64,000 bases of DNA from Leeuwenhoekiella blandensis MED217 (GTDB lineage: Bacteria; Bacteroidota; Bacteroidia; Flavobacteriales; Flavobacteriaceae): NCBI RefSeq assembly GCF_000152985.1, contig NZ_CH672395.1, positions 3,259,823 to 3,323,822 on the forward strand. Direction: 5' to 3'. Within the stretch, counting starts at the first letter, position 1. Every line of letters starts with the position of its first letter. Shown piece by piece: positions 26,635-57,879 of this stretch. The notes below the pieces were generated by a model. It made no database searches. It was not told where the DNA came from and saw only the letters and a program-made list of their open reading frames with translations. A program made the position numbers and the translations under genes.

Positions 26635-26655
26635 CTATAAATCTATAATTCGTGA

Positions 26656-28225: not shown

Positions 28226-28298
28226 AGCGGGAGACCGGGTTCGAACCGGCGACATTCAGCTTGGAAGGCTGACGCTCTACCAACTGAGCTACTCCCGC
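28226..28298 (-). tRNA. tRNA-Gly (anticodon TCC)
   Basis: 73-base cloverleaf with acceptor GCGGGAG/CTCCCGC, anticodon loop CTTCCAA, T-arm CCGGTTCGAACCCGG. CCA is not encoded. About 170 bases separate it from the next tRNA (Thr-GGT), the largest gap in the cluster. Confidence 0.95.
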
Positions 28299-28347
28299 AT
28301 TGTGGGCGCCAAAATTAATACATTTATTAATACTGGCAAAATTTTTG

Positions 28348-28430
28348 TGGGGAGAGCAGGATTCGAACCTGCGAAGTCTAATGACAACAGAGTTACAGTC
28401 TGTCCTCGTTGGCCGCTTGAGTATCTCCCC
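28348..28430 (-). tRNA. tRNA-Tyr (anticodon GTA)
   Basis: 83-base class II tRNA: acceptor GGGGAGA/TCTCCCC, anticodon loop CTGTAAC, long variable arm, T-arm GCAGGTTCGAATCCTGC, discriminator A. CCA is not encoded. Confidence 0.95.
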
Positions 28431-28502
28431 GATTGGTATTTTCAATATTTCAAAAAACGCTTTAACCGCGCTTTGCGCAAGCTCCAAAAGAGCTTTATTT
28501 TG

Positions 28503-28576
28503 AGCCGATGGAGGGACTCGAACCCACGACCTGCTGATTACAAATCAGCTGCTCTAGCCAGCTGAGCTACATCGGC
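28503..28576 (-). tRNA. tRNA-Thr (anticodon TGT)
   Basis: 74-base cloverleaf with acceptor GCCGATG/CATCGGC, anticodon loop TTTGTAA, T-arm GTGGGTTCGAGTCCCTC. CCA is not encoded. First gene of the tRNA-tuf operon. Confidence 0.95.
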
Positions 28577-30358: not shown

Positions 30359-30371
30359 GCAGCTTTTTAAA

Positions 30372-30465
30372 TTTATTATCTCCAATGAATTTAACAACCC
30401 GAGGCTTGCCTCTGAATTGAAAATTCGTTTCCAACTAACGTCTCATAGACTTACCATGAAGTAGC
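30372..30465 (-). repeat. Dispersed structured intergenic repeat, copy E
   Basis: On the minus strand it reads GGCTACTTCATGG ... TTGGAAACGAATTTTCAATT ... GAGGCAAGCCTCGG ... AATAAA, the same order of segments as copies at 43993, 53234 and 57677. Stem I is TTCAT/ATGAG, stem III GAGGC/GCCTC; stem IV is degenerate. It starts directly at the end of the acyl-CoA dehydrogenase gene and lies just upstream of the rpsU promoter. Confidence 0.75.
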
Positions 30466-30468
30466 CTG

Positions 30469-43914: not shown

Positions 43915-43992
43915 ATCTTAAGCACTGTTTCAAACCGCAGAATTTCCAATTGAACAATTCCACAACAAATTCAATATCAAAAATCTAGCAGT

Positions 43993-44093
43993 AAACCACC
44001 TCAGAGCAAACCCATGAGGCATTGTCTGGAAACGAATGTTCGATATCGTGGCAAGCCTCGGAGTATTTGACCCTTTGGCGGTGCCAATAAAAA
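43993..44093 (+). repeat. Dispersed structured intergenic repeat, copy A
   Basis: Segments in order: CCTCAGAGC..CCATGAGG (stem I), GGAAACGAATGTTC (stem II), CGTGGCAAGCCTCGG (stem III), CCCTTTGGCGGTGCCAATAAA split as stem IV TTGGC/GCCAA with loop GGT. Nearly collinear with copies C and D. Follows the NamZ-like gene and precedes a terminator-like inverted repeat. Confidence 0.85.
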
Positions 44094-44257
44094 TGCTAGA
44101 TTAATCGAGCTTACGCTGAACTTAGCGCCTTTAAAACAGCATTTTTACGTTAATTAACGCAATTAAATACGGCGTTAACGTTTTAAAACGTTTAAATTAT
44201 TTAATTTCCCAACCTGTTATAACGATGTAGTAAATCACTATATCGTTTGATATCCGA

Positions 44258-44351
44258 AATACTTCGGGGTAGCCCTAAGGTATTCGTTAGAAACAGGTTT
44301 TCAATTTCGCGGCAAGCTCGGCTATTAAAGCCTTTGGTCTTGCCAATAAAA
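44258..44351 (+). repeat. Dispersed structured intergenic repeat, copy B (diverged)
   Basis: Stem I has become ATACTTCGGG..CCCTAAGGTAT, stem II GAAACAGGTTTTC, stem III CGCGGCAAGCTCG, stem IV TTGGT/GCCAA with a T-G pair, ending AATAAA. The sequence differs from copy A on both arms of stem I yet keeps pairing. It lies directly before the ATG at 44360, so it could also act as a 5' leader. Confidence 0.7.
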
Positions 44352-44359
44352 TTTAAACT

Positions 44360-44737
44360 ATGAAGTCTATTATAATTTTAATTTGTGCGTTTTTCTTCAG
44401 CATCCCATTTTACGGCCAGCGCCTTTATGGCTCCATCACCGATGCTAAAACACAAGAACCAATTGAAGGCGTGAACGTTTTTATAAAATCAATTAAAAAA
44501 GGGGTTACTTCAAAGAGTGACGGTATTTTTTATTTTGAACAAGCACACGGACTAGAAAAGAAAGACACGATCCTCTTTAATATGGTTGGGTATCATACGC
44601 TGAAACTGACCTTAGAACAATATCAATCTCAAGATAACGAAGTGCGATTGATTGAAGAGCAATTTGTCAATAGCAAACCTATTAAGGGTACAAATCGTGT
44701 GATCACACTTGGTGAAGCCAAGAGCAATATTAAATGA
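44360..44737 (+). CDS. Exported carboxypeptidase-regulatory-like domain protein
   Basis: 125 residues. A signal peptide (MKSIIILICAFFFSIPFYGQ, cleaved after about residue 20) is followed by one CarboxypepD_reg-like beta-sandwich: LYGSITDAKTQEPIEGVNVFI and TSKSDGIFYFE. This domain usually stands at the N-terminus of TonB-dependent SusC-type receptors; here it is alone, without the plug or barrel. The last residues (RVITLGEAKSNIK) are not a membrane anchor, so it is probably periplasmic or secreted. Ends at a strong terminator (44785-44816). It may be a remnant or a stand-alone accessory protein. Confidence 0.7.
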   Translation: MKSIIILICAFFFSIPFYGQRLYGSITDAKTQEPIEGVNVFIKSIKKGVTSKSDGIFYFEQAHGLEKKDTILFNMVGYHTLKLTLEQYQSQDNEVRLIEEQFVNSKPIKGTNRVITLGEAKSNIK

Positions 44738-44784
44738 TTACGCAAACGATATATTATTTTTAGAATCTAAACTTGTCTAAATTT

Positions 44785-44816
44785 ATACCTCGGGATTTTC
44801 CCGGGGTATTTTTTTT
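44785..44816 (+). terminator. Intrinsic terminator
   Basis: 10-bp stem ATACCTCGGG / CCCGGGGTAT (one T-G pair) with 5-base loop, followed by TTTTTTTT on the plus strand, before the serine hydrolase gene. Confidence 0.85.
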
Positions 44817-44836
44817 CAACTAATTCAATCTACGCA

Positions 44837-46120
44837 ATGAAACCTATTTTAAATCTGTGTACCATCTACTGTTGCTTGTTCCTTTTTCAAATTTCCGGCT
44901 ATGCGCAACAAGAAAGCTTGCTCCCTAAGATGCGACCGGAAGCCGCGGGAATGAGCAGTTCACGACTTGCTTATCTTGATACGATGGCGCTTGAGGCTCT
45001 CGCTCAAAAGCAAGTACCGGGAATGGTCGCTCTGGTTGCCCGTAATGGTAAAATTGTATACCACAAAGCATTTGGAGCCGCAAATGCAGCAGGTGAACCC
45101 CTTGATCTGAACTCCATTTTTAGAATCGCATCACAAACCAAAGCAATTACCTCAACTGCAGTGATGATGCTTTGGGAGCGTGGGAAATTTCAACTTGACG
45201 ATCCTATTTCAAAATACATTCCTGAGTTTAAAGATGCTCAGGTCTTAGATTCCCTATTACCTGACGGAAGCTATACAACCAAGCCGGCAGCACGTCCCAT
45301 AACGATTAGACATTTGCTTACGCACACCTCAGGAATTGGCTATGGTGCTATCGATGGCGACCCCAGATTTAAGAAGATCTATAAAAAAGCCGGCATCACC
45401 GACCTTTTTACTACTGAAAAAATCACGATTGAAGAAAGTGTCAAGAAACTTGCAAAACTGCCATTGCATCACAATCCCGGTGAGAATTTCACGTATAGCG
45501 AAGGGCTCGACGTATTGGGGTATTTTATTGAGATCATTTCCGGCAAGCCGCTTGACGAGTTTTTTAGAACTGAAATCTTTGAACCTTTAAAAATGAACAA
45601 CACGTTCTTTTATCTCCCAAAAGAAAAACGAGACCTTCTGGTTTCTGTTCAAACGAAGAAGGAAGGTGATTGGATTGATTTCCCAACCACCTTTTACGAT
45701 CCTGATTATCCAAAAAAAGGAAAAATGACTTTCTTCTCCGGTGGCGCCGGACTTTCAAGCACTCCGGTAGATTATGCGCAATTTCTTCAAACGTACCTCA
45801 ATAAAGGTATACTCAATGGAAACAGAATTTTAAGCCGTACAACCGTCGATTTTATTCTAAAAAATCAAATTGGAGATATTTGGAAAGGTAATGGTTCACA
45901 TCACGGCCTTGCGTTTAGTGTAGTTGATGACCTAGGTGCTGCCAAAGGCGGTAATGGAAGTGCAGGCACTTTTGAGTGGGGCGGTTATTTCAACACGCAA
46001 TATTTTGCTGATCCTGAAGAACAACTCATCGGTATTATAATGAAGCAAACACAGCAAGTAGGTGGAGATGAAACCTCTTGGAAGTTAAGAAATATTGTTT
46101 TTGCGGCGATTGCTGATTAA
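44837..46120 (+). CDS. Exported serine hydrolase, class C beta-lactamase/EstB family
   Basis: 427 residues with signal peptide (cleavage near GYAQ, residue 24). The catalytic SxxK is Ser99-Gln-Thr-Lys102 in RIASQTKAIT; the Tyr of the second motif is Tyr220 in FTYSEGLDVLG, the EstB-like YSxxxDVLG form rather than YxN; HTSGIGYG and the C-terminal GGNGSAGTFEWGG complete the family pattern. These enzymes are esterases, D-amino peptidases or beta-lactamases; the reaction is not predictable. Close to an exported M28 peptidase gene on the same strand (138-base gap), suggesting degradation of external substrates. Confidence 0.88.
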   Translation: MKPILNLCTIYCCLFLFQISGYAQQESLLPKMRPEAAGMSSSRLAYLDTMALEALAQKQVPGMVALVARNGKIVYHKAFGAANAAGEPLDLNSIFRIASQTKAITSTAVMMLWERGKFQLDDPISKYIPEFKDAQVLDSLLPDGSYTTKPAARPITIRHLLTHTSGIGYGAIDGDPRFKKIYKKAGITDLFTTEKITIEESVKKLAKLPLHHNPGENFTYSEGLDVLGYFIEIISGKPLDEFFRTEIFEPLKMNNTFFYLPKEKRDLLVSVQTKKEGDWIDFPTTFYDPDYPKKGKMTFFSGGAGLSSTPVDYAQFLQTYLNKGILNGNRILSRTTVDFILKNQIGDIWKGNGSHHGLAFSVVDDLGAAKGGNGSAGTFEWGGYFNTQYFADPEEQLIGIIMKQTQQVGGDETSWKLRNIVFAAIAD

Positions 46121-46258
46121 TTCTGAATTTTTCTCGATTAAATCTATTTTTCGATAAAAGTAAAAAGCGAGAATGATTAATCGCTCTTTTTATTCAGCAG
46201 AACCAATCGAAGTTTTAATTTTAAGGTCTAACACTTAAAAGCACTTAAATTTATTTTA

Positions 46259-47809
46259 ATGAAAAAAACGTTTTACTTATGTATGCTTGGCGCCAGTCTG
46301 AGCACCGGCCTTTTTGCGCAAACGCAAGAAGAAACGGTTGACGCGATCGTTAAAGAAGCAACCGAAAATTCACAACTTAAACTACTTGCTCACCAACTTC
46401 TGGATGTTGTGGGACCACGACTTGTAGGAACTCCAGAAATGAAACAAGCGCACGATTGGGCTGTTGACACCTATACCGATTGGGGTATCGAAGCTGAAAA
46501 TCAGCAGTGGGGCGTTTGGAAAGGTTGGGATCGTGGCATCACCCATATCGATTTGGTTAGTCCGCGCAGTGTAAGTCTTGAAGGTATGCAGTTGGCTTGG
46601 TCTCCTGCAACCAAATCAAAAGGTGTAGAGGCTGAAGTTGTAGTGCTTCCGGAAGCTAAAGATTCGGTTAGCTTTAAAAATATGCTTTCTCAGGTAGAAG
46701 GAAAATTTGTTTTGGTTTCTATGCCACAACCTACCGGTAGACCTGACGACAATTGGGAAGAATGGGCGACTCCTGAGTCTTTTGAGAAAATGAAAAAAGA
46801 CCGTGATGCGCTTAATGACGCTTGGAATGCGCGCATCAAAGCTACAGGATATTCTTCAAGAGAACTTCCTAAAATATTAGAAGAAGCAGGAGCTGTTGGT
46901 GTGATTACCAGCAACTGGTCACGCGGTTTTGGTGTAAACAAAGTATTTTCTGCCTATACCGAAGAAATCCCGATGGTGGATATCGCTTTAGAAGATTATG
47001 GTCTGCTTTACCGTCTTGCAGATTACGGCGACAAGCCTGTGATCAAAGTGGTTGCAGAATCTGAAGAATTGGGTGAAATGCCAACATTCAACACCATCGC
47101 TCAAATAAAAGGAAGTGAAAAGCCTGATGAGTATGTGATTCTTTCAGCCCATTTTGACTCTTGGGATGGTGGCCAGGGAGCAACAGACAACGGTACAGGA
47201 ACTTTGGTAATGATGGAAGCTATGCGCATCTTAAAGCAAGTTTATCCTAATCCAAAACGCACCATTCTCGTAGGACATTGGGGAAGTGAAGAGCAAGGGC
47301 TTAACGGGTCTCGTTCTTTTGTAAAAGATCATCCGGAAATCGTAGCGGGTGTTCAAGCGGTATTTAATCAGGATAATGGTACAGGTCGCGTGGCTAATAT
47401 TTCAGGAAACGGATTCTTAAATGCTTACGATTATTTAGGCAGTTGGTTAAGCGCTGTTCCTGATGAAGTAGCACGTATTGAAACCCATTTCCCGGGAACT
47501 CCTGGTCGTGGTGGTTCTGACTACGCTTCTTTTGTAGCGGCTGGTGCTCCTGCATTCAACCTAAGTTCGTTAAGCTGGAATTACTGGAACTACACCTGGC
47601 ACACCAACCGTGATACTTATGATAAGATCGTTTGGGACGATGTGCAAAACAATGCGATCCTGACTGCGGTTTTAGCGTACATGGCAAGTGAAGACGACGA
47701 AAAAACTTCTCGTGAGCAAATCGTTCTTCCTATAAACAGAAGATCTGGTGAGCAAATGACTTGGCCAACACCTCGTGATGGAAACCGTCGCGGTGGACTA
47801 GACGACTAA
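46259..47809 (+). CDS. Exported M28 family zinc peptidase
   Basis: 516 residues. Signal peptide MKKTFYLCMLGASLSTGLFA, cleaved near residue 20. PA-like insertion region in the middle (EEAGAVGVITSNWSRG), then the M28 aminopeptidase domain. Zinc ligands by position: His298 and Asp310 (SAHFDSWDGGQGATDNGTG), Glu345 after general base Glu344 (GSEEQG), Asp372 (NQDNGTG), His448 (WHTNRDTYDK). All are present, so it should be active as a di-zinc aminopeptidase or carboxypeptidase in the periplasm or outside. Ends at a terminator shared with the DUF1028 gene. Confidence 0.93.
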   Translation: MKKTFYLCMLGASLSTGLFAQTQEETVDAIVKEATENSQLKLLAHQLLDVVGPRLVGTPEMKQAHDWAVDTYTDWGIEAENQQWGVWKGWDRGITHIDLVSPRSVSLEGMQLAWSPATKSKGVEAEVVVLPEAKDSVSFKNMLSQVEGKFVLVSMPQPTGRPDDNWEEWATPESFEKMKKDRDALNDAWNARIKATGYSSRELPKILEEAGAVGVITSNWSRGFGVNKVFSAYTEEIPMVDIALEDYGLLYRLADYGDKPVIKVVAESEELGEMPTFNTIAQIKGSEKPDEYVILSAHFDSWDGGQGATDNGTGTLVMMEAMRILKQVYPNPKRTILVGHWGSEEQGLNGSRSFVKDHPEIVAGVQAVFNQDNGTGRVANISGNGFLNAYDYLGSWLSAVPDEVARIETHFPGTPGRGGSDYASFVAAGAPAFNLSSLSWNYWNYTWHTNRDTYDKIVWDDVQNNAILTAVLAYMASEDDEKTSREQIVLPINRRSGEQMTWPTPRDGNRRGGLDD

Positions 47810-47831
47810 AGTCGATTAAATATAAAAATAG

Positions 47832-47866
47832 AAATGCCTGAGTAACGTACTCAGGCATTTTTTTAT
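47832..47866. terminator. Bidirectional intrinsic terminator
   Basis: 13-bp perfect stem AAATGCCTGAGTA / TACTCAGGCATTT, 3-base loop, then TTTT; lies between the convergent M28 peptidase and DUF1028 genes. Confidence 0.88.
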
Positions 47867-47891
47867 GCTTTCTAAAAAACTTCAAGTTGAA

Positions 47892-48878
47892 TTATAAATT
47901 CTGAATTTGCTCAACTTCTGATGCGCTCACGGTAAGCAATCCCGGTTTTACTAAGCGTCCTATCATTTCGCGCCAATTTTCATCCTGTTCAAAAATCGCC
48001 TTAAAAATAGGTTTTGCTTCCTCAAGTTGACCGTCATTGGCCATCGCTACCGCCTTCCAAAATTTCATTTCCAAATTATCGGGAAACATTGTTTCGGCGG
48101 TACCATATTGTTTTAACGCTTCGGGCATATCACCTGCTTCTACAGCCAGATCGCCGCGGTTCATATATTCGTATGCTCGGGCAACCTTCAGTAACCGATC
48201 TAATTCTTCAATGGGATTTTGGTGATCATCTACACGCAAATTGATCTTATATTCTTCCCACGGATTCTCAACCAATTCTGGTCCTACAACGATCAGTGCA
48301 GCAGATTGCTTTCCGCGGATATCACCACCTGCAGCTTGGGCCGCTTTTAAAACCTCAACCATACGCTCTGCTAACGGAAGTTTACTATGCTTCTCAAAAG
48401 CCGCAGCCATCGCAGGAACAGTTTGATCGGTCAACATCATATTAGCCTGCACCGAAAAATTATCTCCGGTAATCTGACTGGCATAAACTACACATTTTTC
48501 ACCCGTGTAGGCTGAAGCATTTCCGTTGACATCTAAAAAAGCGACTTGCCGATAGGCTTTCCCTTCATCTTCGGCGATAAGCTGTGCAAGTGCAGCTTCC
48601 GCAGACATTCCTTCCTGCATCAAGGCTAAACCTTTAGGACCGTAAGAAGGATTCACGAAAGATTGTGTAGCAACCACTCCTACTCCACTCTTTCCCCAAC
48701 TTACCAAAGAACCCACGCTAAACCAATGGCTTTGTACCGCAACAGCCATTTCTCCGGTCTCAGCGTCGCGAGCAACAATAGAAAACGTGTGTGCAAACGC
48801 ACTTTTATCGGCGTCAATTTGTTGGCTAAAACCTGTTGCTGTAAAAGCTAGAATTAAAATACTTATAATGCTTTTCAT
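47892..48878 (-). CDS. Exported DUF1028 protein with TPR-like tail
   Basis: 328 residues, signal peptide ending near GFSQQ (residue 19). The DUF1028 domain is clear: HTFSIVARDAETGEMAVAVQSHWFSVG, WGKSGVGVVATQSFVNPSYGP, followed by AALAQLIAEDEGKAYRQVAFLD. The fold is thought to be Ntn-hydrolase-like, activity unproven. The C-terminal 90 residues (ARAYEYMNRGDLAVEAGDMPEALKQYG) look like tetratricopeptide helices. It begins five bases after the stop of the YkgJ-type gene, so both are one operon. Confidence 0.85.
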   Translation of the reverse strand: MKSIISILILAFTATGFSQQIDADKSAFAHTFSIVARDAETGEMAVAVQSHWFSVGSLVSWGKSGVGVVATQSFVNPSYGPKGLALMQEGMSAEAALAQLIAEDEGKAYRQVAFLDVNGNASAYTGEKCVVYASQITGDNFSVQANMMLTDQTVPAMAAAFEKHSKLPLAERMVEVLKAAQAAGGDIRGKQSAALIVVGPELVENPWEEYKINLRVDDHQNPIEELDRLLKVARAYEYMNRGDLAVEAGDMPEALKQYGTAETMFPDNLEMKFWKAVAMANDGQLEEAKPIFKAIFEQDENWREMIGRLVKPGLLTVSASEVEQIQNL

Positions 48879-48883
48879 ACGTC

Positions 48884-49381
48884 TTATTTCAGTTTAATGC
48901 GTTCTTTCATTTGCTCAACGATATTATACGCCGCCGGGCAAATCGCAACATTTTTTAAGGTTAGATTGGTGATCTGCTGAAATTTCTTTCGGTCTGTATG
49001 CGGGAATTCGGCACAGGCTTTGGGGCGCACATCGTAGATCATACAGTAATTATCTGCTCCCAGAAAGGTACACGGCACTTCCTGTAATACATAATCGTTA
49101 TCTTCATCAACGCGCAAATAGGTCTCAATAAACTGCGCATCTTTCATTCTAAAATGCTTGGCGATCCTGCTCACATCACGATCGGTAAATAACGGTCCTG
49201 TTGTTTTACAGCAATTTGCGCACGTAAGACAGTCGGTGCGCTCAAACTCCTCCTCGTGCAACTCCTGCATCTGATAATCCAGATCTTTGGGCGGTTTGCG
49301 CTTCAGCTTTTTAAAATAGGCAGCAGTCTCTTTATGCTTATCTTTGGCCAGATTGGGCAACTGCTCAATAAATTCATCCAT
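48884..49381 (-). CDS. YkgJ family cysteine cluster protein
   Basis: 165 residues with the YkgJ/UPF0153 cysteine pattern: CLTCANCCK, CTFLGADNYCMIYDVRPKAC and FPHTDRKKF, with a last Cys in VAICPAAYN. Family members bind zinc or an iron-sulfur cluster; function unknown. It is first of a two-gene unit with the DUF1028 protein and is divergent from the methyltransferase gene (35-base gap). A -7 box (49386-49393) ends only four bases before the ATG, which predicts a leaderless message. Confidence 0.85.
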   Translation of the reverse strand: MDEFIEQLPNLAKDKHKETAAYFKKLKRKPPKDLDYQMQELHEEEFERTDCLTCANCCKTTGPLFTDRDVSRIAKHFRMKDAQFIETYLRVDEDNDYVLQEVPCTFLGADNYCMIYDVRPKACAEFPHTDRKKFQQITNLTLKNVAICPAAYNIVEQMKERIKLK

Positions 49382-49385
49382 ACCG

Positions 49386-49393
49386 CAAAAATA
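49386..49393 (-). promoter_or_regulatory. Candidate -7 promoter element of the YkgJ-type gene (TATTTTTG)
   Basis: Matches TAnnTTTG on the minus strand and ends four bases before the ATG. No clear TTG is found 17-23 bases further upstream. Confidence 0.4.
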
Positions 49394-49416
49394 AGCATTT
49401 AAAGCCCCTATAGTTT

Positions 49417-50148
49417 ATGGCCAAAAAAGATTCTAAAAACCCCGATATATTTGGTCAAGCTTTACTTGATTTTCACAACGACAAGTATTCTGAAGATATT
49501 ACAGTGATCTCGTCACTTACCGAAGATGATGAGATTCCTGTTCCTTATCTCTTCCGCAGTTATGAAGAAATGCCTGAAGTGGAACAAAAAGCGCTTCAAC
49601 TGGCTCAAGGAAAAACCTTAGACATTGGTGCCTGCGCCGGAAGCCACACTTTATACCTTCAAAATAAAGGTATTGAGGTTACTGCTTTAGATATTTCTGA
49701 AGGAGCTATTGAGGTTTGTAAAAGTCGCGGAGTTAAGAGCACACAAATCACAGACATCTTAGATTATAGAGAAAGTGGCTACGATACGCTTTTATTAATA
49801 ATGAATGGCACCGGTATTTTTCAAACGCTTAAAAAGACTGAAAGCTATCTCACCCATTTGCGTTCTTTACTCAAAACCGACGGTCAAATTCTGGTTGACT
49901 CTTCAGACATCGCTTTTATGTATGAGGAAGAAGATGGGAGTTACTGGCGTGACGCAAGTCGTGATTATTATGGGGAGGTCACCTTTCAAATCAACTATAA
50001 AAACCAGACCTCAGCAGCTTTTGACTGGTTGTATCTAGATTTTAAAACTTTAAAAAAAGAAGCAGAAAAAGCAGGTTTTACTTGCGAAAAAATTTGTGAC
50101 GGGCCACATTATGATTTTTTAGCACGCTTGATAAAAACTGAATCCTAA
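49417..50148 (+). CDS. Class I SAM-dependent methyltransferase
   Basis: 243 residues. The SAM-binding motif I is LDIGACAGSHTLYL (about residue 69), followed by the acidic end of strand 2 (VTALDIS) and motif-like LLLIMNGTGIF in place of the usual motif IV. N-terminal segment is short and charged; no signal peptide. The substrate cannot be told. It is divergent from the YkgJ-type gene and followed by a lipoprotein gene on the same strand (94-base gap). Confidence 0.85.
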   Translation: MAKKDSKNPDIFGQALLDFHNDKYSEDITVISSLTEDDEIPVPYLFRSYEEMPEVEQKALQLAQGKTLDIGACAGSHTLYLQNKGIEVTALDISEGAIEVCKSRGVKSTQITDILDYRESGYDTLLLIMNGTGIFQTLKKTESYLTHLRSLLKTDGQILVDSSDIAFMYEEEDGSYWRDASRDYYGEVTFQINYKNQTSAAFDWLYLDFKTLKKEAEKAGFTCEKICDGPHYDFLARLIKTES

Positions 50149-50242
50149 AAATTAGCGTAAATATTAAAAACATCACAAAGCTTTTACAACAAGAGCTCAA
50201 GCTAAAACGTTTAGTTATTTTAGCGAAACCTAAATTAATACA

Positions 50243-51040
50243 ATGATTTTACAGAAAATTACCCCCTATTTTACGCTACTATTTGCCTTTTTAATACTAT
50301 CCTGCTCTAGTGATACTAATAATTCTGAGACCACACCTCCAGATCCAACGGCAGCAAATAGACAATCCTTGGGAGCATCTGCCAGAGCTTTTTTGAGTGC
50401 AGAAGAGTTCACCTCGATGAATGTAGAGATCGCCTATGTAGACGGCTTTAGACCTTCTGAAAATACGCTGAATAATCTTAGAAGTTTTTTTACTGCCCGC
50501 CTTAACAAACCCGGCGGTGTACGTTTTACTGAAACGGTAGTTCCTGCAACTACAGTAGGTGCTCTCAATCGAGATGAATATGTTGAGATAGAAAATGACA
50601 ATCGCACTGTTTTTAATGAAGGAAGCGAGTTAGGCGTCTGGGTCTTTTTTGCAGATCAGAATTCTGAAAGTGACGAAGGCAACAGTAGAATTCTTGGTAC
50701 AGCCTATCGCAATACCTCGTGTATCATTTTTGGAGAAACGCTTAGAGAATTTAGCCGCGGCATAACGGGACCAAGTTTAACCCAGTTAGAAACCATCACA
50801 ACCGAACACGAGTTTGGTCACTTATTTGGTTTAGTAAATCTGGGTACAGAAATGGTGCGTGATCACGAAGATGAAACCGCAGATGACGACGGTGGCGCAA
50901 CACCAAATAAACACTGCGATCAGGAAAACTGCCTGATGTATTTTCAAACCGTCGCAGATGCTACCAGTACAGATATGAGCGGGTTACCGACTTTTGGTGA
51001 ATTCTGTTTAGAAGATTTACGCGCTAACGGTGGAAAATAA
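50243..51040 (+). CDS. Archaemetzincin-like metalloprotease lipoprotein
   Basis: 265 residues. Signal peptide with lipobox LILSC (Cys21), so it is membrane anchored outside the cytoplasm. The zinc site HEFGHLFGLVN (His189, Glu190, His193) resembles a metzincin, but the position of the third His holds Asn199. About 25 residues later NKHCDQENCLMYF (His224, Cys225, Cys230, Met232) and FCLEDL (Cys255) match the HCxxxxCxM part of archaemetzincins, so His224 may be the third ligand after an acidic insertion. Homologues in this phylum are usually called membrane metalloproteases. Repeat fragment F and a terminator follow its stop. Confidence 0.8.
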   Translation: MILQKITPYFTLLFAFLILSCSSDTNNSETTPPDPTAANRQSLGASARAFLSAEEFTSMNVEIAYVDGFRPSENTLNNLRSFFTARLNKPGGVRFTETVVPATTVGALNRDEYVEIENDNRTVFNEGSELGVWVFFADQNSESDEGNSRILGTAYRNTSCIIFGETLREFSRGITGPSLTQLETITTEHEFGHLFGLVNLGTEMVRDHEDETADDDGGATPNKHCDQENCLMYFQTVADATSTDMSGLPTFGEFCLEDLRANGGK

Positions 51041-51041
51041 A

Positions 51042-51080
51042 GCGCCTTGGAGTATAAAACCCTTTGACGGTGTTAATAAA
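51042..51080 (+). repeat. Dispersed structured intergenic repeat, partial copy F
   Basis: Only the 3' third is present: CCTTGGAGTATAAAACCC, then TTGAC/GTTAA around GGT, ending AATAAA. Stem IV differs from TTGGC/GCCAA on both arms and still pairs. It starts one base after a stop codon and runs into a terminator. Confidence 0.65.
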
Positions 51081-51115
51081 AAAAGCTTCGGATGTTCTCC
51101 GAAGCTTTTCTTTTT
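51081..51115. terminator. Bidirectional intrinsic terminator
   Basis: 12-bp perfect stem AAAAGCTTCGGA / TCCGAAGCTTTT, 5-base loop, followed by CTTTTT; between convergent genes ending at 51040 and 51135. Confidence 0.88.
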
Positions 51116-51134
51116 ATCCTTTTTCTATTGCTAC

Positions 51135-52019
51135 CTAGTCAAGAACCAGACTTGTTGAAGCGATCATTTTACCACCATCAAAAATGTTGATTTTGTATAA
51201 ACCTTCAGCAAACTTGTCACCTCTTGGCGCAACATTTTCACAGATATCTAAAGCCGTTTTCTCATAATAAAACTTAGAGATCGCACTATACGTGATCGAG
51301 GTCACACTATCGATCGTCACCGTCTTGTTTTCTCCCAAGATGTTATTCTGCGGATCTAAAACTTGCACGTAAAGCTGCTTATCTCCGGCTTCTGCGATTC
51401 GGTTTTGAGGTACTGTATAACACGCTCTAATGCGATCAACACGGCGCGCGTTATCATTCTCTACCAGTTTACCACTGTTTCTCACGATCACTCCGGTTCC
51501 CACAAGTTTGTTAGCAGCAAGACTAGAACCCAGTGCAACTTTTTCTGCAAGCTCTTCTTTAACCATCGCCAGACTATCGCGTTTCATCTTAGAAACTTCA
51601 AGTTCGTAAGTCGTACTATCCACGCGCATAGCGAGCATTTTGTTCATTCCCTTTAAGCTGTCGTTTTGGGCAAAAAGATACTCACGCTCCTTTTTAAGTT
51701 TATACACCTCATCACGATAACGACGCAAAACAGAAATATTAGCTTCCATCTTTTGCACCGAATCTATAAGAACTTGTATGCGGTCTCTCGCTTGGTTCAG
51801 TTCGGTATCCTTTAAATTGTTTTCTTCGATCACCGCGTCATATTTGGTAACCATTTGCTTTAGATCATTAAGCACAAGCTCCTTTTCTTCGGTCAACTCG
51901 GCCTTTGTATTCTTTTCTTGATTGTACAACTTTATAGCAAAAGCCCCTGCTACCACAAGAAGTACTGCAAGAATACCGGTAATGATCTTAATGCCGGTGT
52001 TTTTATTTTCACTTTCCAT
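51135..52019 (-). CDS. Membrane-anchored coiled-coil protein, unknown function
   Basis: 294 residues. One N-terminal transmembrane helix (about residues 11-29, IITGILAVLLVVAGAFAIKL), then a long coiled coil to about residue 165 (NTKAELTEEKELVLNDLKQM onward, rich in Glu, Lys and Leu heptads) and a C-terminal beta-rich domain (ARRVDRIRACYTVPQN to ASTSLVLD). It should face the periplasm. Similar proteins are common in gliding flavobacteria without assigned function. It is monocistronic; its 3' end shares a terminator with the metalloprotease gene. Confidence 0.75.
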   Translation of the reverse strand: MESENKNTGIKIITGILAVLLVVAGAFAIKLYNQEKNTKAELTEEKELVLNDLKQMVTKYDAVIEENNLKDTELNQARDRIQVLIDSVQKMEANISVLRRYRDEVYKLKKEREYLFAQNDSLKGMNKMLAMRVDSTTYELEVSKMKRDSLAMVKEELAEKVALGSSLAANKLVGTGVIVRNSGKLVENDNARRVDRIRACYTVPQNRIAEAGDKQLYVQVLDPQNNILGENKTVTIDSVTSITYSAISKFYYEKTALDICENVAPRGDKFAEGLYKINIFDGGKMIASTSLVLD

Positions 52020-52231
52020 AAATAAGTATTGATTAGATTCTGTTTTATTTTTAAACGTTAAAGCTGCTTCAAAAGTGTATAAAAGTGATAAAACAGCCTT
52101 TATAATTTACTGTTTTTTAACGAAAAAAACTTTTAAAATGCACTTTAAAAATCGCAATCAAACATACAAAAAAGTCAAACACAGCTGCTTTAATTTTTTA
52201 TTAATAGCCTACTAAACAAATTGCAGAACTG

Positions 52232-52239
52232 TATCTTTG
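52232..52239 (+). promoter_or_regulatory. -7 promoter element (TATCTTTG) of the small membrane protein gene
   Basis: Perfect TAnnTTTG box ending four bases before the ATG at 52244; transcription from it would begin at or next to the start codon. No TTG at the usual -33 distance. Confidence 0.5.
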
Positions 52240-52243
52240 AAGT

Positions 52244-52408
52244 ATGAAGGCAGAACATAAACGCGCAGCGATTCTCTTTGGTGTATTGGCTGTTATCGCT
52301 ATAAGCATTTGGTTTTTTCAACCCAGTTTTGGCAAAGGTTTACTTTTAGGATTGGGCATCGCCGCAGTGATATATACCCTGCGCAGCTTCTTACCACGCA
52401 GACAATAA
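52244..52408 (+). CDS. Small hydrophobic membrane protein
   Basis: 54 residues read directly from the sequence (start MKAEHKRAAILFGVLAVIAI, end LRSFLPRRQ). Two transmembrane helices, about residues 8-25 and 31-47, flanked by basic ends, so both termini probably lie in the cytoplasm. A consensus -7 box stands just before the ATG, which supports it as a real gene. It converges with the HAD gene, leaving three bases between stops. I know no named family for it. Confidence 0.65.
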   Translation: MKAEHKRAAILFGVLAVIAISIWFFQPSFGKGLLLGLGIAAVIYTLRSFLPRRQ

Positions 52409-52411
52409 GAC

Positions 52412-53104
52412 CTAAAGAATATCTAAAAGTTCACGAGCACTTTTAAGCGCCTTGAATTTTGAGTGATTGATCTCCTCATCTACCTGTTCGTGTGACCACG
52501 TGGTATGAAATGGAATATGAAAAGCGTGACCGCCCATTGCAAGTACCGGGATAACATCTGATTTTAGCGAGTTACCGATCATCAAGAATTCCTGAGGCTG
52601 AATATCTAAATGTTTTACCAGTTTCTTGTATTGTGTTTCTTTTTTATCTGAAACGATCTCCACGTGATGAAAATAATCGATCAAGCCGCTTTTGATCAAT
52701 TTACGCTCTTGATCAAGCAGGTCACCTTTAGTCGCTACTACCAGCTTATATTTTTTTGAAAGTTGGCCTAGAACTTCTTCAATATGCGGAAGTAACTCAA
52801 CAGGTTCAGCGAGCATTTGCTTGCCTTTATTCAATATAAAATCTATGGTTTCAGCATTCATCTTTTTGCCCATCAACCGATGTGCAGTCTCTAACATCGA
52901 CAAGGTAAATCCCTTGATCCCGTAACCGTAGGTGTCTAAGTTTTTTATTTCGGTATCCAGAAGTTTTTGAACGATCTCGTCTTGGTCACCATACGCAGCA
53001 AGATGCTTTGCAAACGCAACTTCTGCATCTCTAAAAAATGTCTCATTCACCCAGAGCGTATCATCTGCATCAAATGCGATGGCTTTTATATTTTCAAAAC
53101 TCAA
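52412..53104 (-). CDS. HAD superfamily hydrolase
   Basis: 230 residues. Motif I AFDADDTLW carries the nucleophile and acid/base aspartates; motif II is LVVATKG (Thr), the Lys of motif III is in ETQYKKLVKHL, and motif IV is IGNSLKSDV with the metal-binding Asp. A helical cap lies between motifs I and II, as in phosphoglycolate-phosphatase/YjjG-like enzymes. The only start in phase is TTG at 53104 (MSFENIKAIAFD); no ATG precedes the motif. Substrate unknown. Confidence 0.88.
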   Translation of the reverse strand: MSFENIKAIAFDADDTLWVNETFFRDAEVAFAKHLAAYGDQDEIVQKLLDTEIKNLDTYGYGIKGFTLSMLETAHRLMGKKMNAETIDFILNKGKQMLAEPVELLPHIEEVLGQLSKKYKLVVATKGDLLDQERKLIKSGLIDYFHHVEIVSDKKETQYKKLVKHLDIQPQEFLMIGNSLKSDVIPVLAMGGHAFHIPFHTTWSHEQVDEEINHSKFKALKSARELLDIL

Positions 53105-53155
53105 AATTATCTGTGTTTATTAGTTTCTCTAAAAGTACTAAAAGTAAACTTCCTC

Positions 53156-53199
53156 GAAACAAGCCCGGGACTTGTTTCTGTTTGGCGGTGCCAAAAAAA
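53156..53199 (+). repeat. Dispersed structured intergenic repeat, partial copy G
   Basis: Contains AAACAAG/CTTGTTT (7-bp stem around CCCGGGA) and then TTGGC-GGT-GCCAA, identical to stem IV of copy A, followed by an A run. Only stem IV is clearly shared with the full copies, so this is a weak member. Confidence 0.45.
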
Positions 53200-53227
53200 A
53201 CCTCACAGGTTTTAGCTGTGAGGTTTT
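53197..53227 (-). terminator. Intrinsic terminator of ettA
   Basis: 12-bp stem AAAACCTCACAG / CTGTGAGGTTTT, 7-base loop; on the minus strand it runs into eight T. It is downstream of ettA after repeat copy C, which lies antisense to ettA. Confidence 0.85.
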
Positions 53228-53233
53228 CTTATT

Positions 53234-53332
53234 AAACTACCTCAGGGCAACCCCTTGAGGCATTGCTTGAAAACGAATTTTCAATTTCGAGGCAAGCCTC
53301 GGAGTATAAAACCCTTTGGCGGCGCCAATAAA
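53234..53332 (+). repeat. Dispersed structured intergenic repeat, copy C
   Basis: The most regular copy: CCTCAGGGCAACCCCTTGAGG split as stem I CCTCA/TGAGG, stem II GAAAACGAATTTTC, stem III CGAGGCAAGCCTCG (perfect), stem IV TTGGC-GGC-GCCAA, then TAAA. It lies between ettA and its terminator but in antisense orientation to ettA. Confidence 0.88.
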
Positions 53333-53348
53333 TTGTTTTTTACAGTAA

Positions 53349-55040
53349 TTAGCGCACCAACTTTTTATACTTGATACGTTTTGGCATAAGATCTCCGCCT
53401 AAACGTTTTTTCTTATTCTCTTCATAATCAGAGAAACCACCTTCAAAGAAATAGACTTGACTATCCCCTTCAAAAGCTAAAATATGTGTACAAATTCTAT
53501 CTAAGAACCAACGGTCGTGAGAGATTACCACCGCACAGCCTGCAAAGTTCTCAAGTCCTTCTTCAAGAGCTCTTAAAGTATTTACATCAAGGTCGTTTGT
53601 AGGCTCATCGAGTAGCAATACGTTACCCTCTTCTTTAAGGGTCATTGCCAGATGTAAGCGGTTACGCTCCCCTCCAGACAACATACTTACTTTTTTATTT
53701 TGCTCGCTTCCGCTGAAGTTGAATCGACTTAAATAGGCTCTACTGTTAACTTGGCGACCGCCCATCATGATTAGCTCCTGTTTATCACTAAAGTTTTCCC
53801 AAATGGTTTTCTCAGGATCAATATTACTGTGCGACTGGTCTACGTATGCGATTTTTGCTGTTTCTCCTACAGTAAATTCGCCTTTATCCGGCTCGATCTC
53901 TCCCATTATCATTTTGAAGATCGTGGTTTTACCGGCACCGTTAGGACCAATAACACCAACGATTCCTGCCTGCGGAAGTACAAAATTCAAATCTTCATAA
54001 AGCAGTTTTTCGCCGAAGGCTTTACTTACGCCTTTTGCATCGATCACATTAGTACCTAAACGCGGGCCGTTGGGAATGTAGATTTCTAATTTCTCATCGG
54101 TTTGTTTTTGATCTTGAGAAAGCAGCTTGTCATAATTACTCAAACGTGCTTTTTGCTTGGCTTGACGTCCTTTTGGTGCCATACGCACCCACTCTAACTC
54201 ACGCTCTAAGGTTTTTTGACGTTTGCTGGCTTGCTTTTGTTCTTGTGCCATGCGCTTAGACTTCTGGTCTAACCAAGAAGAATAATTTCCTTTCCAAGGA
54301 ATTCCTTCTCCACGATCTAGCTCAAGAATCCATCCTGCTACATTATCTAAGAAATAACGGTCGTGCGTTACGGCAATAACCGTCCCTTTATATTGTGCCA
54401 AGTGATGTTCTAACCAGTGAACACTCTCTGCATCTAAGTGGTTGGTAGGCTCATCAAGCAGCAATACATCAGGTTCTTGTAATAACAAACGACATAAAGC
54501 AACACGACGGCGCTCTCCACCAGAAAGCACACCAATCTTTTGATCTGCAGGTGGTGTACGCAACGCATCCATCGCTACTTCAAGTTTATTGTCTAACTCC
54601 CACGCGCCTCTTGCATCAATCTCATCTTGAAGTACAGCCTGACGGTTCATCAGCTTTTCCATTTTATCTGGATCACTGTACACCTCTTCTAATCCAAACT
54701 GATCATTGATCTTATTATATTCATCAAGAATTGCAACCGTATCTGCAGCTCCTTCTTTTACTACCTCAAGAACCGTTTTGTCATCGTCTAACTGTGGTTC
54801 TTGCTCTAAATAGCCTACAGAGAATTCTTTATCTGAAGTTACATCTCCTTGATAGTTCTTGTCAATCCCGGCAATGATCTTCAGCAAAGTAGATTTACCC
54901 GAACCGTTAAGCCCCAAAATTCCGATTTTGGCTCCGTAGAAAAAACTCAGGTAGATATTTTTAAGTACCGGAGTATTGGCACCGGGAAAGGTTTTACTCA
55001 CCCCGGTCATTGAAAATATTATTTTTTTATCGTCACTCAT
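53349..55040 (-). CDS. ettA: Energy-dependent translational throttle protein EttA (ABC-F)
   Basis: 563 residues with two ABC domains and no membrane part. Walker A GLNGSGKST and GPNGAGKT, signature motifs LSGGERRRVALC and LSGGERNRLHLA, Walker B LLLDEPTNHLD and LLLDEPTNDLD. The inter-domain linker is charged (RMAQEQKQASKRQKTLERE), as needed to reach the ribosomal P site. EttA binds the E site and regulates the first elongation step by ATP level. Length and the end KRIKYKKLVR fit EttA rather than other ABC-F members. The DinB-like gene precedes it on the same strand by 62 bases. Confidence 0.93.
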   Translation of the reverse strand: MSDDKKIIFSMTGVSKTFPGANTPVLKNIYLSFFYGAKIGILGLNGSGKSTLLKIIAGIDKNYQGDVTSDKEFSVGYLEQEPQLDDDKTVLEVVKEGAADTVAILDEYNKINDQFGLEEVYSDPDKMEKLMNRQAVLQDEIDARGAWELDNKLEVAMDALRTPPADQKIGVLSGGERRRVALCRLLLQEPDVLLLDEPTNHLDAESVHWLEHHLAQYKGTVIAVTHDRYFLDNVAGWILELDRGEGIPWKGNYSSWLDQKSKRMAQEQKQASKRQKTLERELEWVRMAPKGRQAKQKARLSNYDKLLSQDQKQTDEKLEIYIPNGPRLGTNVIDAKGVSKAFGEKLLYEDLNFVLPQAGIVGVIGPNGAGKTTIFKMIMGEIEPDKGEFTVGETAKIAYVDQSHSNIDPEKTIWENFSDKQELIMMGGRQVNSRAYLSRFNFSGSEQNKKVSMLSGGERNRLHLAMTLKEEGNVLLLDEPTNDLDVNTLRALEEGLENFAGCAVVISHDRWFLDRICTHILAFEGDSQVYFFEGGFSDYEENKKKRLGGDLMPKRIKYKKLVR

Positions 55041-55102
55041 GTTCCGTTTGTTTTATTTTTTTGAATCTAAATTTTATCCTTCAACTTACAAGAATTCTTG
55101 GC

Positions 55103-55573
55103 TTAAAGCAAACCCAACAACCTAAGAATAATGGCTAACTGCCCTGCATGATATGCGTTGTGCTCGATGACGAGCATCAATTCGCGTAGCACCGTTTGCT
55201 CTTTACCGTGCTTAACCACATCTAGTAAATGGGTATCTACAGTTTCGACAAACACAGCCAGTTGTTTTTGATCGTCTTTAAATTGATTTTTAAGCGCTTC
55301 CCAAGACTCCTTTGAAACTGCACTACTGGCATCAGGCCAATAATCGCGTGGCCAAGCCGGTAGTTTATAATCTTCAGCTGTGCAATAGCTCAAAATATCT
55401 TTCTGGGCATACACCATATGATAGAAAATCTCATAAAAGGAATACGGCAACCCCACCGGGCGCTTACCCGATTTTTTAAATGAGATTTTCTCAAGAAGCT
55501 CACTTACGGGCATAAATGCCTCGCCGCCCTTAAGGTGTTTTAGAAGTTGTTCTTTGAGCGCTTGGTCTGCCAT
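55103..55573 (-). CDS. DinB-like four-helix protein
   Basis: 156 residues. The DinB/YfiT fold is suggested by histidines in the expected places: FYHMVYAQK in helix 2 and EHNAYHAGQLAIILRLLG (HxxxH) in helix 4, which would hold a divalent metal. Many members are thiol-dependent or glutathione-type transferases, most have no proven activity. Its ATG overlaps the stop of the upstream 59-residue membrane protein gene by one base (TAATG), so translation is coupled. Confidence 0.82.
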   Translation of the reverse strand: MADQALKEQLLKHLKGGEAFMPVSELLEKISFKKSGKRPVGLPYSFYEIFYHMVYAQKDILSYCTAEDYKLPAWPRDYWPDASSAVSKESWEALKNQFKDDQKQLAVFVETVDTHLLDVVKHGKEQTVLRELMLVIEHNAYHAGQLAIILRLLGLL

Positions 55574-55752
55574 TAAACTCTTCCTTTTAATGCATTAAAA
55601 ACCCAGGCGATTGCAAAGAAACCTATACCTACTGAAGCAAATCCCCAACCGGCAACTTCAGAATATTTAAAGGCTCCTAATGCTATAAGTCCTAAGCCTA
55701 CAACGATCATTATAAACGTTGCCCAACCTAGTACTGTATTCTTATTCATCAT
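55573..55752 (-). CDS. Small membrane protein of the flavobacterial CAL67264-like type
   Basis: 59 residues read from the sequence (ATG ATG at 55752/55749, start MMNKNTVLGWATFIMIVVG, end WVFNALKGRV). Two transmembrane helices, about residues 10-27 and 37-53, with Gly-rich packing. It resembles a widespread flavobacterial family that I recall under the name CAL67264 family membrane protein; the function is unknown. One-base overlap with the downstream DinB-like gene supports that it is translated. Confidence 0.75.
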   Translation of the reverse strand: MMNKNTVLGWATFIMIVVGLGLIALGAFKYSEVAGWGFASVGIGFFAIAWVFNALKGRV

Positions 55753-55998
55753 AATAATTTGTTTGTAGCTCTGACAGGCATCAGAAGCTAAAATTTACCC
55801 AACTCGTTTTCAAGCTTAACAGCATTTCAAGCGTCCTTGGGTTTTGGTTTAAAAAGCAAATATCGCGTTTTTCACATAAGTATAACGATTTCATGAGGGA
55901 GTGATTTCGTATTTTCGTTAACATTCAATTTTACAATACGTGAGTGTTTCCGGTTTAATTCTTAAAGCCTCTGGGAATGCTCTTTATATAATTTATAG

Positions 55999-57627
55999 AT
56001 GGATTTAAAATTCAATAAAAACGAAGATCACAATAAGCTTCTTGTTTCCGATTTAAAGCATCGCTTGGCCAAAGTAAAGCTGGGCGGTGGCGAAAAACGC
56101 ATCGCTAAGCATCACGAAAAAGGAAAACTCACCGCTAGAGAGCGCATTGATTTTCTACTGGATGACGCCGAAAAAGCTATTGAAATCGCTGCCTTTGCCG
56201 GTGAAGGAATGTATGAAGAGCACGGTGGCTGCCCTAGTGGCGGAGTTGTGGTTAAAATAGGACACATAAGTGGAAAGCAATGTATTGTCGTTGCAAATGA
56301 TGCTACTGTAAAAGCCGGAGCATGGTTTCCTATTACAGGAAAAAAGAACCTGCGCGCGCAAGAACTAAGCATAGAAAATAAATTACCCATCATCTATCTC
56401 GTTGACAGTGCCGGGGTCTACTTGCCAATGCAAGATGAGATCTTCCCTGACAAAGAGCATTTTGGTCGCATTTTTAGAAATAATGCGGTGATGAGCAGTA
56501 TGGGCATTACTCAAATAAGTGCCGTGATGGGTAGCTGTGTTGCGGGAGGTGCTTACCTGCCCATTATGAGCGATGAGGCGATGATCGTAGATAAGACCGG
56601 GAGTATTTTTCTCGCCGGAAGTTATCTCGTGAAAGCCGCCATTGGTGAAACGGTTGACAATGAAACTTTAGGCGGAGCAACTACGCATTGCGAGATTAGT
56701 GGAGTAACCGACTATAAAGCTTCTGACGACCGGGATGCACTTACACGCATTAAAAATATAATGGGTAAAATAGGTGATTTTGAAAAAGCCGGATATAATC
56801 GAATCGAAGCCGCAAAACCCAAAGAAGATCCGCAAGATATCTACGGAATCCTGCCTGCCAAGCGTAGCGACCAATACGATATGACCGAAATTATAAAACG
56901 TCTGGTTGATAATTCGGAATATGAAGAGTATAAAGAAGGTTATGGTCAAACCTTGATCACAGCATATGCGCGCATTGACGGCTGGGCAGTAGGTATTGTT
57001 GCCAACCAGCGCAAGATCGTAAAAACTAAAAAGGGCGAGATGCAGTTTGGTGGTGTGATCTATAGCGATAGCGCAGATAAAGCCACTCGTTTTATTGCCA
57101 ATTGTAATCAGAAAAAAATACCCTTGGTTTTTCTACAAGATGTTACCGGCTTTATGGTGGGAAGCAAAAGTGAACACGGAGGCATCATAAAAGACGGGGC
57201 CAAAATGGTAAATGCCGTGAGCAATAGTGTAGTGCCTAAATTCACCATTGTAGTTGGAAACTCTTATGGAGCCGGAAATTATGCGATGTGTGGTAAAGCT
57301 TATGATCCTCGATTGATCGCTGCCTGGCCTTCGGCTGAATTAGCGGTAATGAGCGGTAACAGCGCTGCCAAAGTCTTACTCCAAATTGAAACGGCTTCGC
57401 TTAAAAAACAAGGCAAAGAGATCACGCCCGAAGTTGAAAAAGAACTTTATGACAAAATCAAAGCTCGTTATGACGAGCAGGTTTCACCATATTATGCCGC
57501 TTCTCGTATTTGGACCGATGCGATCATCGACCCGCTAGATACGAGAAAGTGGATCTCTACGGGTATTGAAGCAGCAAACCATGCACCTATTGAGAAAAAA
57601 TTCAATCTTGGTGTGATTCAGGTTTAA
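55999..57627 (+). CDS. Acyl-CoA carboxylase, carboxyltransferase (beta) subunit
   Basis: 542 residues, full length. Two crotonase-like lobes: N-lobe with GKLTARERIDFLLDD, GGCPSGGVVVKIG and the oxyanion-hole region MGSCVAGGAYLP; C-lobe with FLQDVTGFMVGSKSEHGG, GNSYGAGNYAMCG and WPSAELAVMSG. It moves CO2 from carboxybiotin to an acyl-CoA. Overall sequence suggests methylcrotonyl-CoA or propionyl-CoA carboxylase; FMVG in the C-lobe fits methylcrotonyl type better. The biotin carboxylase/carrier subunit is not adjacent. Followed by repeat copy D and a terminator. Confidence 0.9.
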   Translation: MDLKFNKNEDHNKLLVSDLKHRLAKVKLGGGEKRIAKHHEKGKLTARERIDFLLDDAEKAIEIAAFAGEGMYEEHGGCPSGGVVVKIGHISGKQCIVVANDATVKAGAWFPITGKKNLRAQELSIENKLPIIYLVDSAGVYLPMQDEIFPDKEHFGRIFRNNAVMSSMGITQISAVMGSCVAGGAYLPIMSDEAMIVDKTGSIFLAGSYLVKAAIGETVDNETLGGATTHCEISGVTDYKASDDRDALTRIKNIMGKIGDFEKAGYNRIEAAKPKEDPQDIYGILPAKRSDQYDMTEIIKRLVDNSEYEEYKEGYGQTLITAYARIDGWAVGIVANQRKIVKTKKGEMQFGGVIYSDSADKATRFIANCNQKKIPLVFLQDVTGFMVGSKSEHGGIIKDGAKMVNAVSNSVVPKFTIVVGNSYGAGNYAMCGKAYDPRLIAAWPSAELAVMSGNSAAKVLLQIETASLKKQGKEITPEVEKELYDKIKARYDEQVSPYYAASRIWTDAIIDPLDTRKWISTGIEAANHAPIEKKFNLGVIQV

Positions 57628-57676
57628 TGTATTCCTTCTTGGTAAAGCTCAAGCCTTTTAATCTTGATTGTCAAGT

Positions 57677-57776
57677 AAACTACCTCAGGGCGGGCTCAAG
57701 AGGCATTGCTTGGAAACGAATTTTCAATTTCGAGACAAGCCTCGGAGCATTAAACCCTTTGGCGGCGCCAATAAAA
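57677..57776 (+). repeat. Dispersed structured intergenic repeat, copy D
   Basis: Almost the same as copy C: CCTC..GAGG stem I, GGAAACGAATTTTC stem II, CGAGACAAGCCTCGG stem III (one mismatch), TTGGC-GGC-GCCAA stem IV, AATAAA. Lies 50 bases after the carboxylase stop and runs into a terminator whose first arm starts in its last bases. Confidence 0.88.
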
Positions 57777-57815
57777 CAGGTTTACTATAGATAACACCTA
57801 TAGTAAACCTGTTTT
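57773..57815 (+). terminator. Intrinsic terminator of the acyl-CoA carboxylase gene
   Basis: 18-bp stem: AAAACAGGTTTACTATAG with CTATAGTAAACCTGTTTT, 7-base loop, then ATTTTT on the plus strand. Confidence 0.9.
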
Positions 57816-57879
57816 ATTTTTACAGTTATACTCGACTAAATCGGTTAAGTCTAAACAGTATTAGCCCAAATAACTATCC

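Follow-up and report, generated by a model that had tools for sequence, protein, structure and literature searches.

What is the hairpin-rich repeat of about 100 bases that recurs, mostly between genes, in Leeuwenhoekiella blandensis MED217? We analyzed it in the window, a stretch of 64,000 nucleotides (bases 3259823-3323822 of a one-contig genome of 4,244,565 bases, genus Leeuwenhoekiella), for which an earlier note had described five long and two partial copies and proposed either a REP/MITE-like element moved in trans or a noncoding RNA family. Our results support the first proposal and narrow it: the repeat is very probably a non-autonomous, transposase-less element of the IS200/IS605 type (PATE) and not an RNA family. 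It is at most an IS200/IS605 derivative and not an insertion sequence (IS), as it has neither the transposase gene tnpA nor coding room, and its genome holds no protein of the Y1 transposase family PF01797.

The window contains five full copies and partial ones. All five long copies were recovered at the places given in the earlier note, by sequence and as matches of R1, a covariance model of the repeat built on 29 copies from this genome. The partial copy at 51042-51080 corresponds to the right half of a weak R1 match (50980-51085, 30.5 bits), and the one at 53156-53199 stands as a short single-hairpin variant seen by eye (about 53144-53197) that is not among the R1 matches. The 3′ motif of the repeat, with up to three mismatches, occurs five times in the window vs. 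0.00 expected. Further copies lie elsewhere in the genome: the covariance-model search gave 139 matches at E<=1, of which 124 reached at least 30 bits (both lower bounds, with 150 of 1540 first-look candidates scored). The copies and the parts of the best one are the following (window coordinates):

53229..53337, + strand (model orientation; the tnpA-sense-like, "active" strand is the - strand): full copy, the best of the window (R1 127.4 bits, E 9.3e-24)
53240..53261, + strand: stem I, the right-end (RE) hairpin, CCTCAGGG..CCC.TGAGG, seen in the sequence; it covaries between genera and resembles the RE hairpin beside tnpA in IS200-type elements
53287..53302, + strand: stem III, the left-end (LE) hairpin, TCGAGGcaagCCTCGG, from the sequence, between-genera alignments and the IS-end comparison
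53316..53328, + strand: stem IV, the tip hairpin TTGGCggcGCCAA, adjoining the putative insertion point (cells paired: 100% in alignment A3, 98.5% in A4)
53328..53332, - strand: ATAAA, i.e., TTTAT on the active strand, the putative insertion target, seen in 10/10 near-identical copies of genome G048
57672..57780, + strand: full copy, immediately followed by a terminator-like hairpin and its T-run (about 57775-57822), from sequence and R1 (119.8 bits); no copy at this place in genome G011
43988..44096, + strand: full copy (R1 106.1 bits)
44251..44355, + strand: full copy, diverged (R1 65.6 bits)
30364..30472, - strand: full copy, diverged, opposite to the local polarity (R1 83.1 bits)
50980..51085, + strand: partial copy (LE half), then a terminator-like hairpin, from sequence and R1 (30.5 bits, E 0.0076)
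53144..53197, + strand: short variant that has both ends and a single internal hairpin and lies upstream of a terminator-like hairpin, from the sequence by eye alone; missing in G011

We read the element on its active strand, the complement of the orientation used in the earlier note. Here the left boundary lies behind TTTAT and is followed by TGGCACCGCCA (tip hairpin), AAAGGGTTTAATACT, CGAGGCTTGCCTCG (LE hairpin), an A/T-rich spacer, CCTCATGGGCTTGCCCTGAGG (RE hairpin) and TAGTTTAC, behind which lies the right boundary. With a length of about 95-97 bases there is no room for coding a transposase. The tips, GTAAACTACC.. and ..GTGCCAATAAA, read directly, are not inverted copies of each other, hence the element has no terminal inverted repeats; palindromes (stems I, III, and IV) are found near both ends. 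In single-stranded DNA folding the tip, LE, and RE hairpins form in three of four copies, while the copy at 57672 retains the tip hairpin only. Of the four-hairpin order described previously, stems I, III, and IV are kept between genera, but stem II (the GRAAACGAATTTTC hairpin) is weak and poorly kept, with 74-78% of its cells paired.

Lengths of the R1 matches in the L. blandensis genome cluster at 107-109, 130-131, 144, and 64 bases. The 64-base class seems to have lost the stretch between the GGCAAGCC repeats found in stems I and III, and in the longer classes the apex of stem I or of stem III holds additional palindromes (CCTGTCTGCCGACAAAGGCAGG or ATCCCGATAGCTATCGGGA). These foreign palindromes of the 131/144-base classes (e.g., at genome positions 3381816 and 3496311) recall the SMR-A insertions of Haloquadratum PATEs, as excerpts on the latter describe them. 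Copies also occur in arrays: three lie in tandem at genome positions 1889396-1889693 with a spacing of about 96-98 bases, and four 3′ motifs are arranged head to tail at 98-base spacing in Leeuwenhoekiella polynyae (L294:99-490). Both arrays may have arisen when a copy inserted into the TTTAY end of one already present.

Recent spread to unrelated sites was observed in another genus. In the one-contig genome G048, ten copies with unrelated flanks share 97.8-100% identity (mean 99.6%). On the active strand their common block extends from TTTATTGGCACC to GTAGTTTAC (C in 9/10), and the bases beyond vary. TTTAT precedes the LE in all ten, as it does most commonly among the L. blandensis copies, and the RE ends in TTTAC in nine; this difference rules out a 5-base target duplication. 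One clean empty site was found, at which L. marinoflava has a copy and L. blandensis none, and where the left flank ..TTTAT is joined to the right flank TTATC... Because the right end of the L. marinoflava copy is TTTAT, the site is compatible with insertion without duplication as well as with a TTTA duplication. Among 52 copies of relatives, nine had both flanks placed on the L. blandensis genome, through stretches biased towards sites with copies; a copy is also present here in six, and there is no model match in three. At one of these three (L285) an apparent degenerate short copy is visible by eye in L. blandensis. The sites of window 53144, 53229, and 57672 are species-specific, with no copies in G011.

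The ends of the element resemble those of IS200/IS605 elements. A Pfam and NCBIfam scan of two TnpA proteins, from L. polynyae (L090) and from genome G004 (L089), assigned both to the IS200/IS605 transposases, and relatives of the L090 protein (E<=1e-20) are present at 30 loci in 19 of 397 family genomes. IS ends of the L090 type often share the plan of the element, with an LE hairpin ..GGGTTTAAT.C.CCG with GCTTGC and an RE hairpin CCTCG with GCTTGC-CGAGGTAGTTCATT. We compared the ends at 20 of the 30 loci, the ten excluded being mostly partial or cut by a contig end. In 15 of the 20, the best match of the RE 33-mer anywhere in the locus lay no more than 150 bases to the 3′ side of tnpA and had the same sense; nine of these matches (22-26/33) lie above the shuffled maximum of 20, and six (19-20) within reach of shuffles. 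Just 5′ of tnpA the LE 33-mer matched at 20-25/33 in 8 of the 20 loci (raw count ten, two chance-level placements dropped), and four of these, at 24-25/33, exceeded the shuffled maximum of 23. R1 itself gave matches at E<=0.1 in 13 of 24 IS loci (0.1 expected), all but one antisense to tnpA. Judged by sequence and position, the end palindromes of the repeat appear to be related to IS200/IS605-type ends. A second IS200 subgroup (L088, L089, G283) has the outermost bases TTTATTGG and GTTTA in common with the element. Five such elements of equal transposase score are found in G283 (L360, L371, L377, L382, L386); the right end falls exactly at GTTTA in the three copies with a readable right flank, and TTTA stands on both sides of them, too. 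They were rejected as a partner: the tips agree, yet the hairpin sequences differ, and the best R1 match in 14 loci of this kind had an E of 0.13.

In the L. blandensis genome the orientation of the copies follows replication in 100 of 122 cases (p 4.5e-13; two plus copies near 16 kb omitted), with the minus strand used by 51 of 63 copies at 0.03-2.0 Mb and the plus strand by 49 of 59 beyond. GC skew, taken over stretches of this genome in 200-kb bins, is mostly positive up to 2.0 Mb and mostly negative beyond (exceptions at 1.2 and 3.8 Mb, all near zero), and the 16S matches are on the + strand at 0.76 and 1.49 Mb and on the - strand at 3.15 Mb; the origin therefore lies near 0. Two of the three 16S matches (764821-765455 and 1494993-1495632) are partial, which may be due to masking. 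With the copies oriented in this way, the lagging-strand template carries their complement, which is tnpA-sense in the related IS. The bias holds whatever the direction of the neighboring genes (93/112; 30/34, 28/33, 18/23, and 17/22 in the four arrangements), and genes are themselves unbiased (230 with the fork, 251 against). An orientation set by neighboring genes was thus dropped, since no dependence appeared across the four arrangements. For G048, 20 of 21 copies are oriented in accordance with two half-genome blocks, a result reached by 1/2000 and 0/2000 shuffles. A local GC-skew test gave 86/122 for L. blandensis, 23/34 for other Leeuwenhoekiella, 7/10 and 14/20 for G048, and 8/10 and 5/10 for the complete genomes G127 and G262. 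The polarity is firm in two genomes only, L. blandensis and G048. An orientation set mostly by the direction of replication suggests that the element jumps as single-stranded DNA. Excerpts of earlier work report that the orientation of IS200/IS605 elements follows replication (PMC5371812) and that 22 IS605 tnpA genes of Halanaerobium show no strand preference (PMC7290912).

According to the model that we favor, a Y1 (HUH) transposase TnpA, supplied in trans, would recognize the element in its single-stranded form by binding both hairpins. It would then cut out this strand and place it on the 3′ side of TTTAT, for the most part in the lagging-strand template. In this model we infer the enzyme, a single-stranded intermediate, the points of cleavage, and insertion without target duplication.

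R1 matches were obtained in 13 of 40 genomes sampled from L. blandensis up to the order (Leeuwenhoekiella, 11/13) and, as a lower bound under strict filters, in 81 of 397 sampled genomes and 64 of 237 genera of the Flavobacteriaceae. Hosts of the 3′ motif among the matches listed include Zunongwangia, Maribacter, Aquimarina, Salegentibacter, Sinomicrobium, Mesonia, Dokdonia, and Christiangramia. Plasmid and phage collections gave no match, and an open-licence literature search returned no title describing the element. It is a new, large PATE-like family of Flavobacteriaceae; elements of this kind are known, and the interest lies in the tip hairpin, the cross-genus spread and the missing helper. 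As to the latter, a tblastn search with Y1 proteins over 80 loci beside the 3′ motif revealed no autonomous partner, but one gene only resembling a REP-associated tyrosine transposase (RAYT), itself bearing a copy. In this gene, L232:2056-2520 of L. marinoflava, the copy seems to lie inside the coding stretch. An autonomous long copy in G048 was also considered and discarded, as 20 of the RE-only matches examined belong, by their look, mostly to a second short family. The latter (L418-L437; about 100-300 bases) has the same RE and a different tip hairpin, and the interior of many of its copies contains a conserved stretch, AAGCGTAAAGAAAAGGTCTGG...

The earlier note had taken paired changes in the stems as a sign of selection for RNA or DNA structure. 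Among the 29 L. blandensis copies such changes are about as frequent as in shuffles (covariation score 0.145 vs. 0.135 shuffled, 44/500 shuffles; 8 double-changed cells vs. 4.7, 35/500), and these copies are decaying duplicates. Between genera they rise above it, although relatedness can inflate the counts: a structure-fitted alignment of 50 copies from other genera had 35 double-changed cells vs. 8.0 shuffled (0/500) and at most 18 with partners slid. The signal was weaker in a MAFFT alignment of 40 copies, with 17 double-changed cells vs. 6.1 shuffled (0/500) and a covariation score of 0.147 vs. 0.124 (0/500; at most 0.092 when slid); the slid versions, however, had 15 and 18 such cells, and further pair types were reached in 82/500 shuffles. 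Mean column identity across genera is 80%. The tip hairpin is replaced whole in the second G048 family (CTCGATGATCGAG instead of TTGGCGGTGCCAA) and in L081, its position and the following TAAA unchanged in both. Selection on structure is supported between genera, and DNA hairpins of transposon ends fit it at least as well as RNA.

Of the L. blandensis copies, 115/123 do not overlap an open reading frame of at least 100 aa, and most copies would be decaying insertions in intergenic DNA, where they presumably do little harm. A terminator-like hairpin with a T-run adjoins the LE side in 41/122 and the RE side in 3/122 (other genera: 8/50 and 2/50). For comparison, terminators accompany 24/891 AATAAA sites outside the copies, 61/493 intergenic TTTAT sites, and 46/216 TTTTAT sites. 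Strong targeting of terminators was rejected, the excess being only 1.6- to 2.7-fold over the intergenic motif background. The association is largely predicted by the TTTAT target and survival in intergenic DNA, plus some excess.

These data also bear on a structured noncoding RNA or 3′ untranslated region element with a role in processing, stability or termination, which would have spread by duplication and been retained because of its RNA fold. We hold this reading to be very improbable. Such an RNA would account for the compensatory changes and the column identity between genera, for the intergenic and terminator-adjoining positions, and for the copies that six of the nine placeable relatives' copies have at the same site in L. 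blandensis. However, orientation tracks replication independently of neighboring genes, near-identical copies stand in unrelated flanks and at species-specific sites, hairpin tips swap modules, single-hairpin deletions persist, and covariation within the genome is about at shuffle level. Rfam gave no support either: at the gathering threshold the window matched five tRNAs and nothing else. The five tRNA genes form a cluster at 26490-28576 (minus). The suggestion that the repeat is Flavo-1, an Rfam motif of Flavobacteria that we take to be RF01705, was not borne out, with no match at E<=10 over 43900-44400 nor at E<=1 in eight loci with copies. Least probable of the alternatives is a REP/REPIN-like element moved by a RAYT. 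REPs are numerous, palindromic and intergenic, and RAYT-like proteins (judged by length and motifs) exist in some Leeuwenhoekiella genomes, but the L. blandensis genome has no PF01797 protein, RAYTs included. Moreover, the active strand lacks GTAG 5′ of the hairpin foot (GTAG occurs 3′ of the RE hairpin), and the unit is polar, about 96 bases long and has ends resembling those of IS200-type tnpA elements.

Several observations weigh against an IS200/IS605-type element as well. The lack of a transposase nearby, remarked upon earlier, extends for the Y1 type to the whole L. blandensis genome, in which no PF01797 protein was found (transposases of other types were not searched for). Of the 11 Leeuwenhoekiella genomes that carry copies, 5 lack PF01797, L. 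blandensis included, as do 8 of 20 further copy-bearing genomes, among them G048 with its near-identical copies. No tnpA element with exactly the ends of the repeat was found: candidates of the L090 type resemble it in the hairpins and those of the G283/L088 type in the TTTATTGG...GTTTA tips, none in both to the full, and the tip hairpin was not seen in any IS end read. TTTA is present on both sides of the element, and from the sequence a 4-base TTTA duplication, unlike the action of a Y1 enzyme, may have taken place. Polarity was not significant in G127 (20/28; 548/2000 shuffles) and G262 (13/18; 944/2000), the second G048 family gave 11-14/18 at the same splits, and the local GC-skew test 21/44 in other genera. 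Some of these points would suit an IS200-like look-alike moved by a non-PF01797 recombinase, single-strand or replication-coupled and perhaps with TTTA duplication, in particular the recent copies in G048, the tip hairpin and the TTTA on both sides. We consider it the likeliest of the three alternatives, though still very improbable: both in sequence and in placement the end hairpins are similar to those of IS200-type elements, the G283 elements are likewise flanked by TTTA, and a helper that was lost, or that a transient element supplied, explains the absence equally well. For the IS200/IS605-type element, the missing enzyme is most simply explained by a helper that disappeared after a burst, an unrecognized or transient helper being also possible.

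Comparison with known systems is based on excerpts of the respective papers. The PATEs of Haloquadratum walsbyi (PMC3119063) likewise lack terminal inverted repeats, have palindromes close to their ends that are related to the ends of IS605-type elements, and are too small to encode a transposase. Also shared are deletions of the core at direct repeats, short foreign elements within the palindromes, and mobility though transposase genes are scarce or broken. In contrast, the element described here is bacterial (Flavobacteriaceae), keeps a similar unit across many genera, has an additional tip hairpin and, in two genomes, a strong replication polarity, and has a third of its L. blandensis copies at terminators; whereas PATEs are described as making no target duplication, its TTTA on both sides would allow one of 4 bases. 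With IS200/IS605 elements (IS608, ISDra2; PMC6006769) it has in common a subterminal hairpin at either end, a fixed short target next to the LE and, in two genomes, the link to the lagging-strand template, but it has no tnpA or tnpB, measures about 96 bases and carries an extra hairpin between target and LE hairpin. Like REPs/REPINs with RAYTs (PMC8266576) it consists of high-copy palindromes, with a probable tie to Y1 enzymes; it differs by an asymmetric, two-ended unit, no GTAG 5′ of the hairpin, and no RAYT in the genome.

This reading accounts for a repeat that is conspicuous in many genomes of the Flavobacteriaceae and might pass for a structured RNA family. A broader view, which we put forward as rather unlikely, would see in it family-wide single-strand mini-transposons with an obligatory tip hairpin, moved by an enzyme that is not a recognizable Y1 or is delivered transiently from cell to cell, because G048, with about fifteen fresh copies (its 15 best match one of them at 96-100%), has no recognizable Y1 transposase; the TTTAT target would make intrinsic terminators a natural safe harbor. 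The finding raises the question of what mobilizes the element where no tnpA remains, and it adds natural genomes in which such elements follow replication. Its TTTAT target lets the element settle behind genes at terminators without breaking them.

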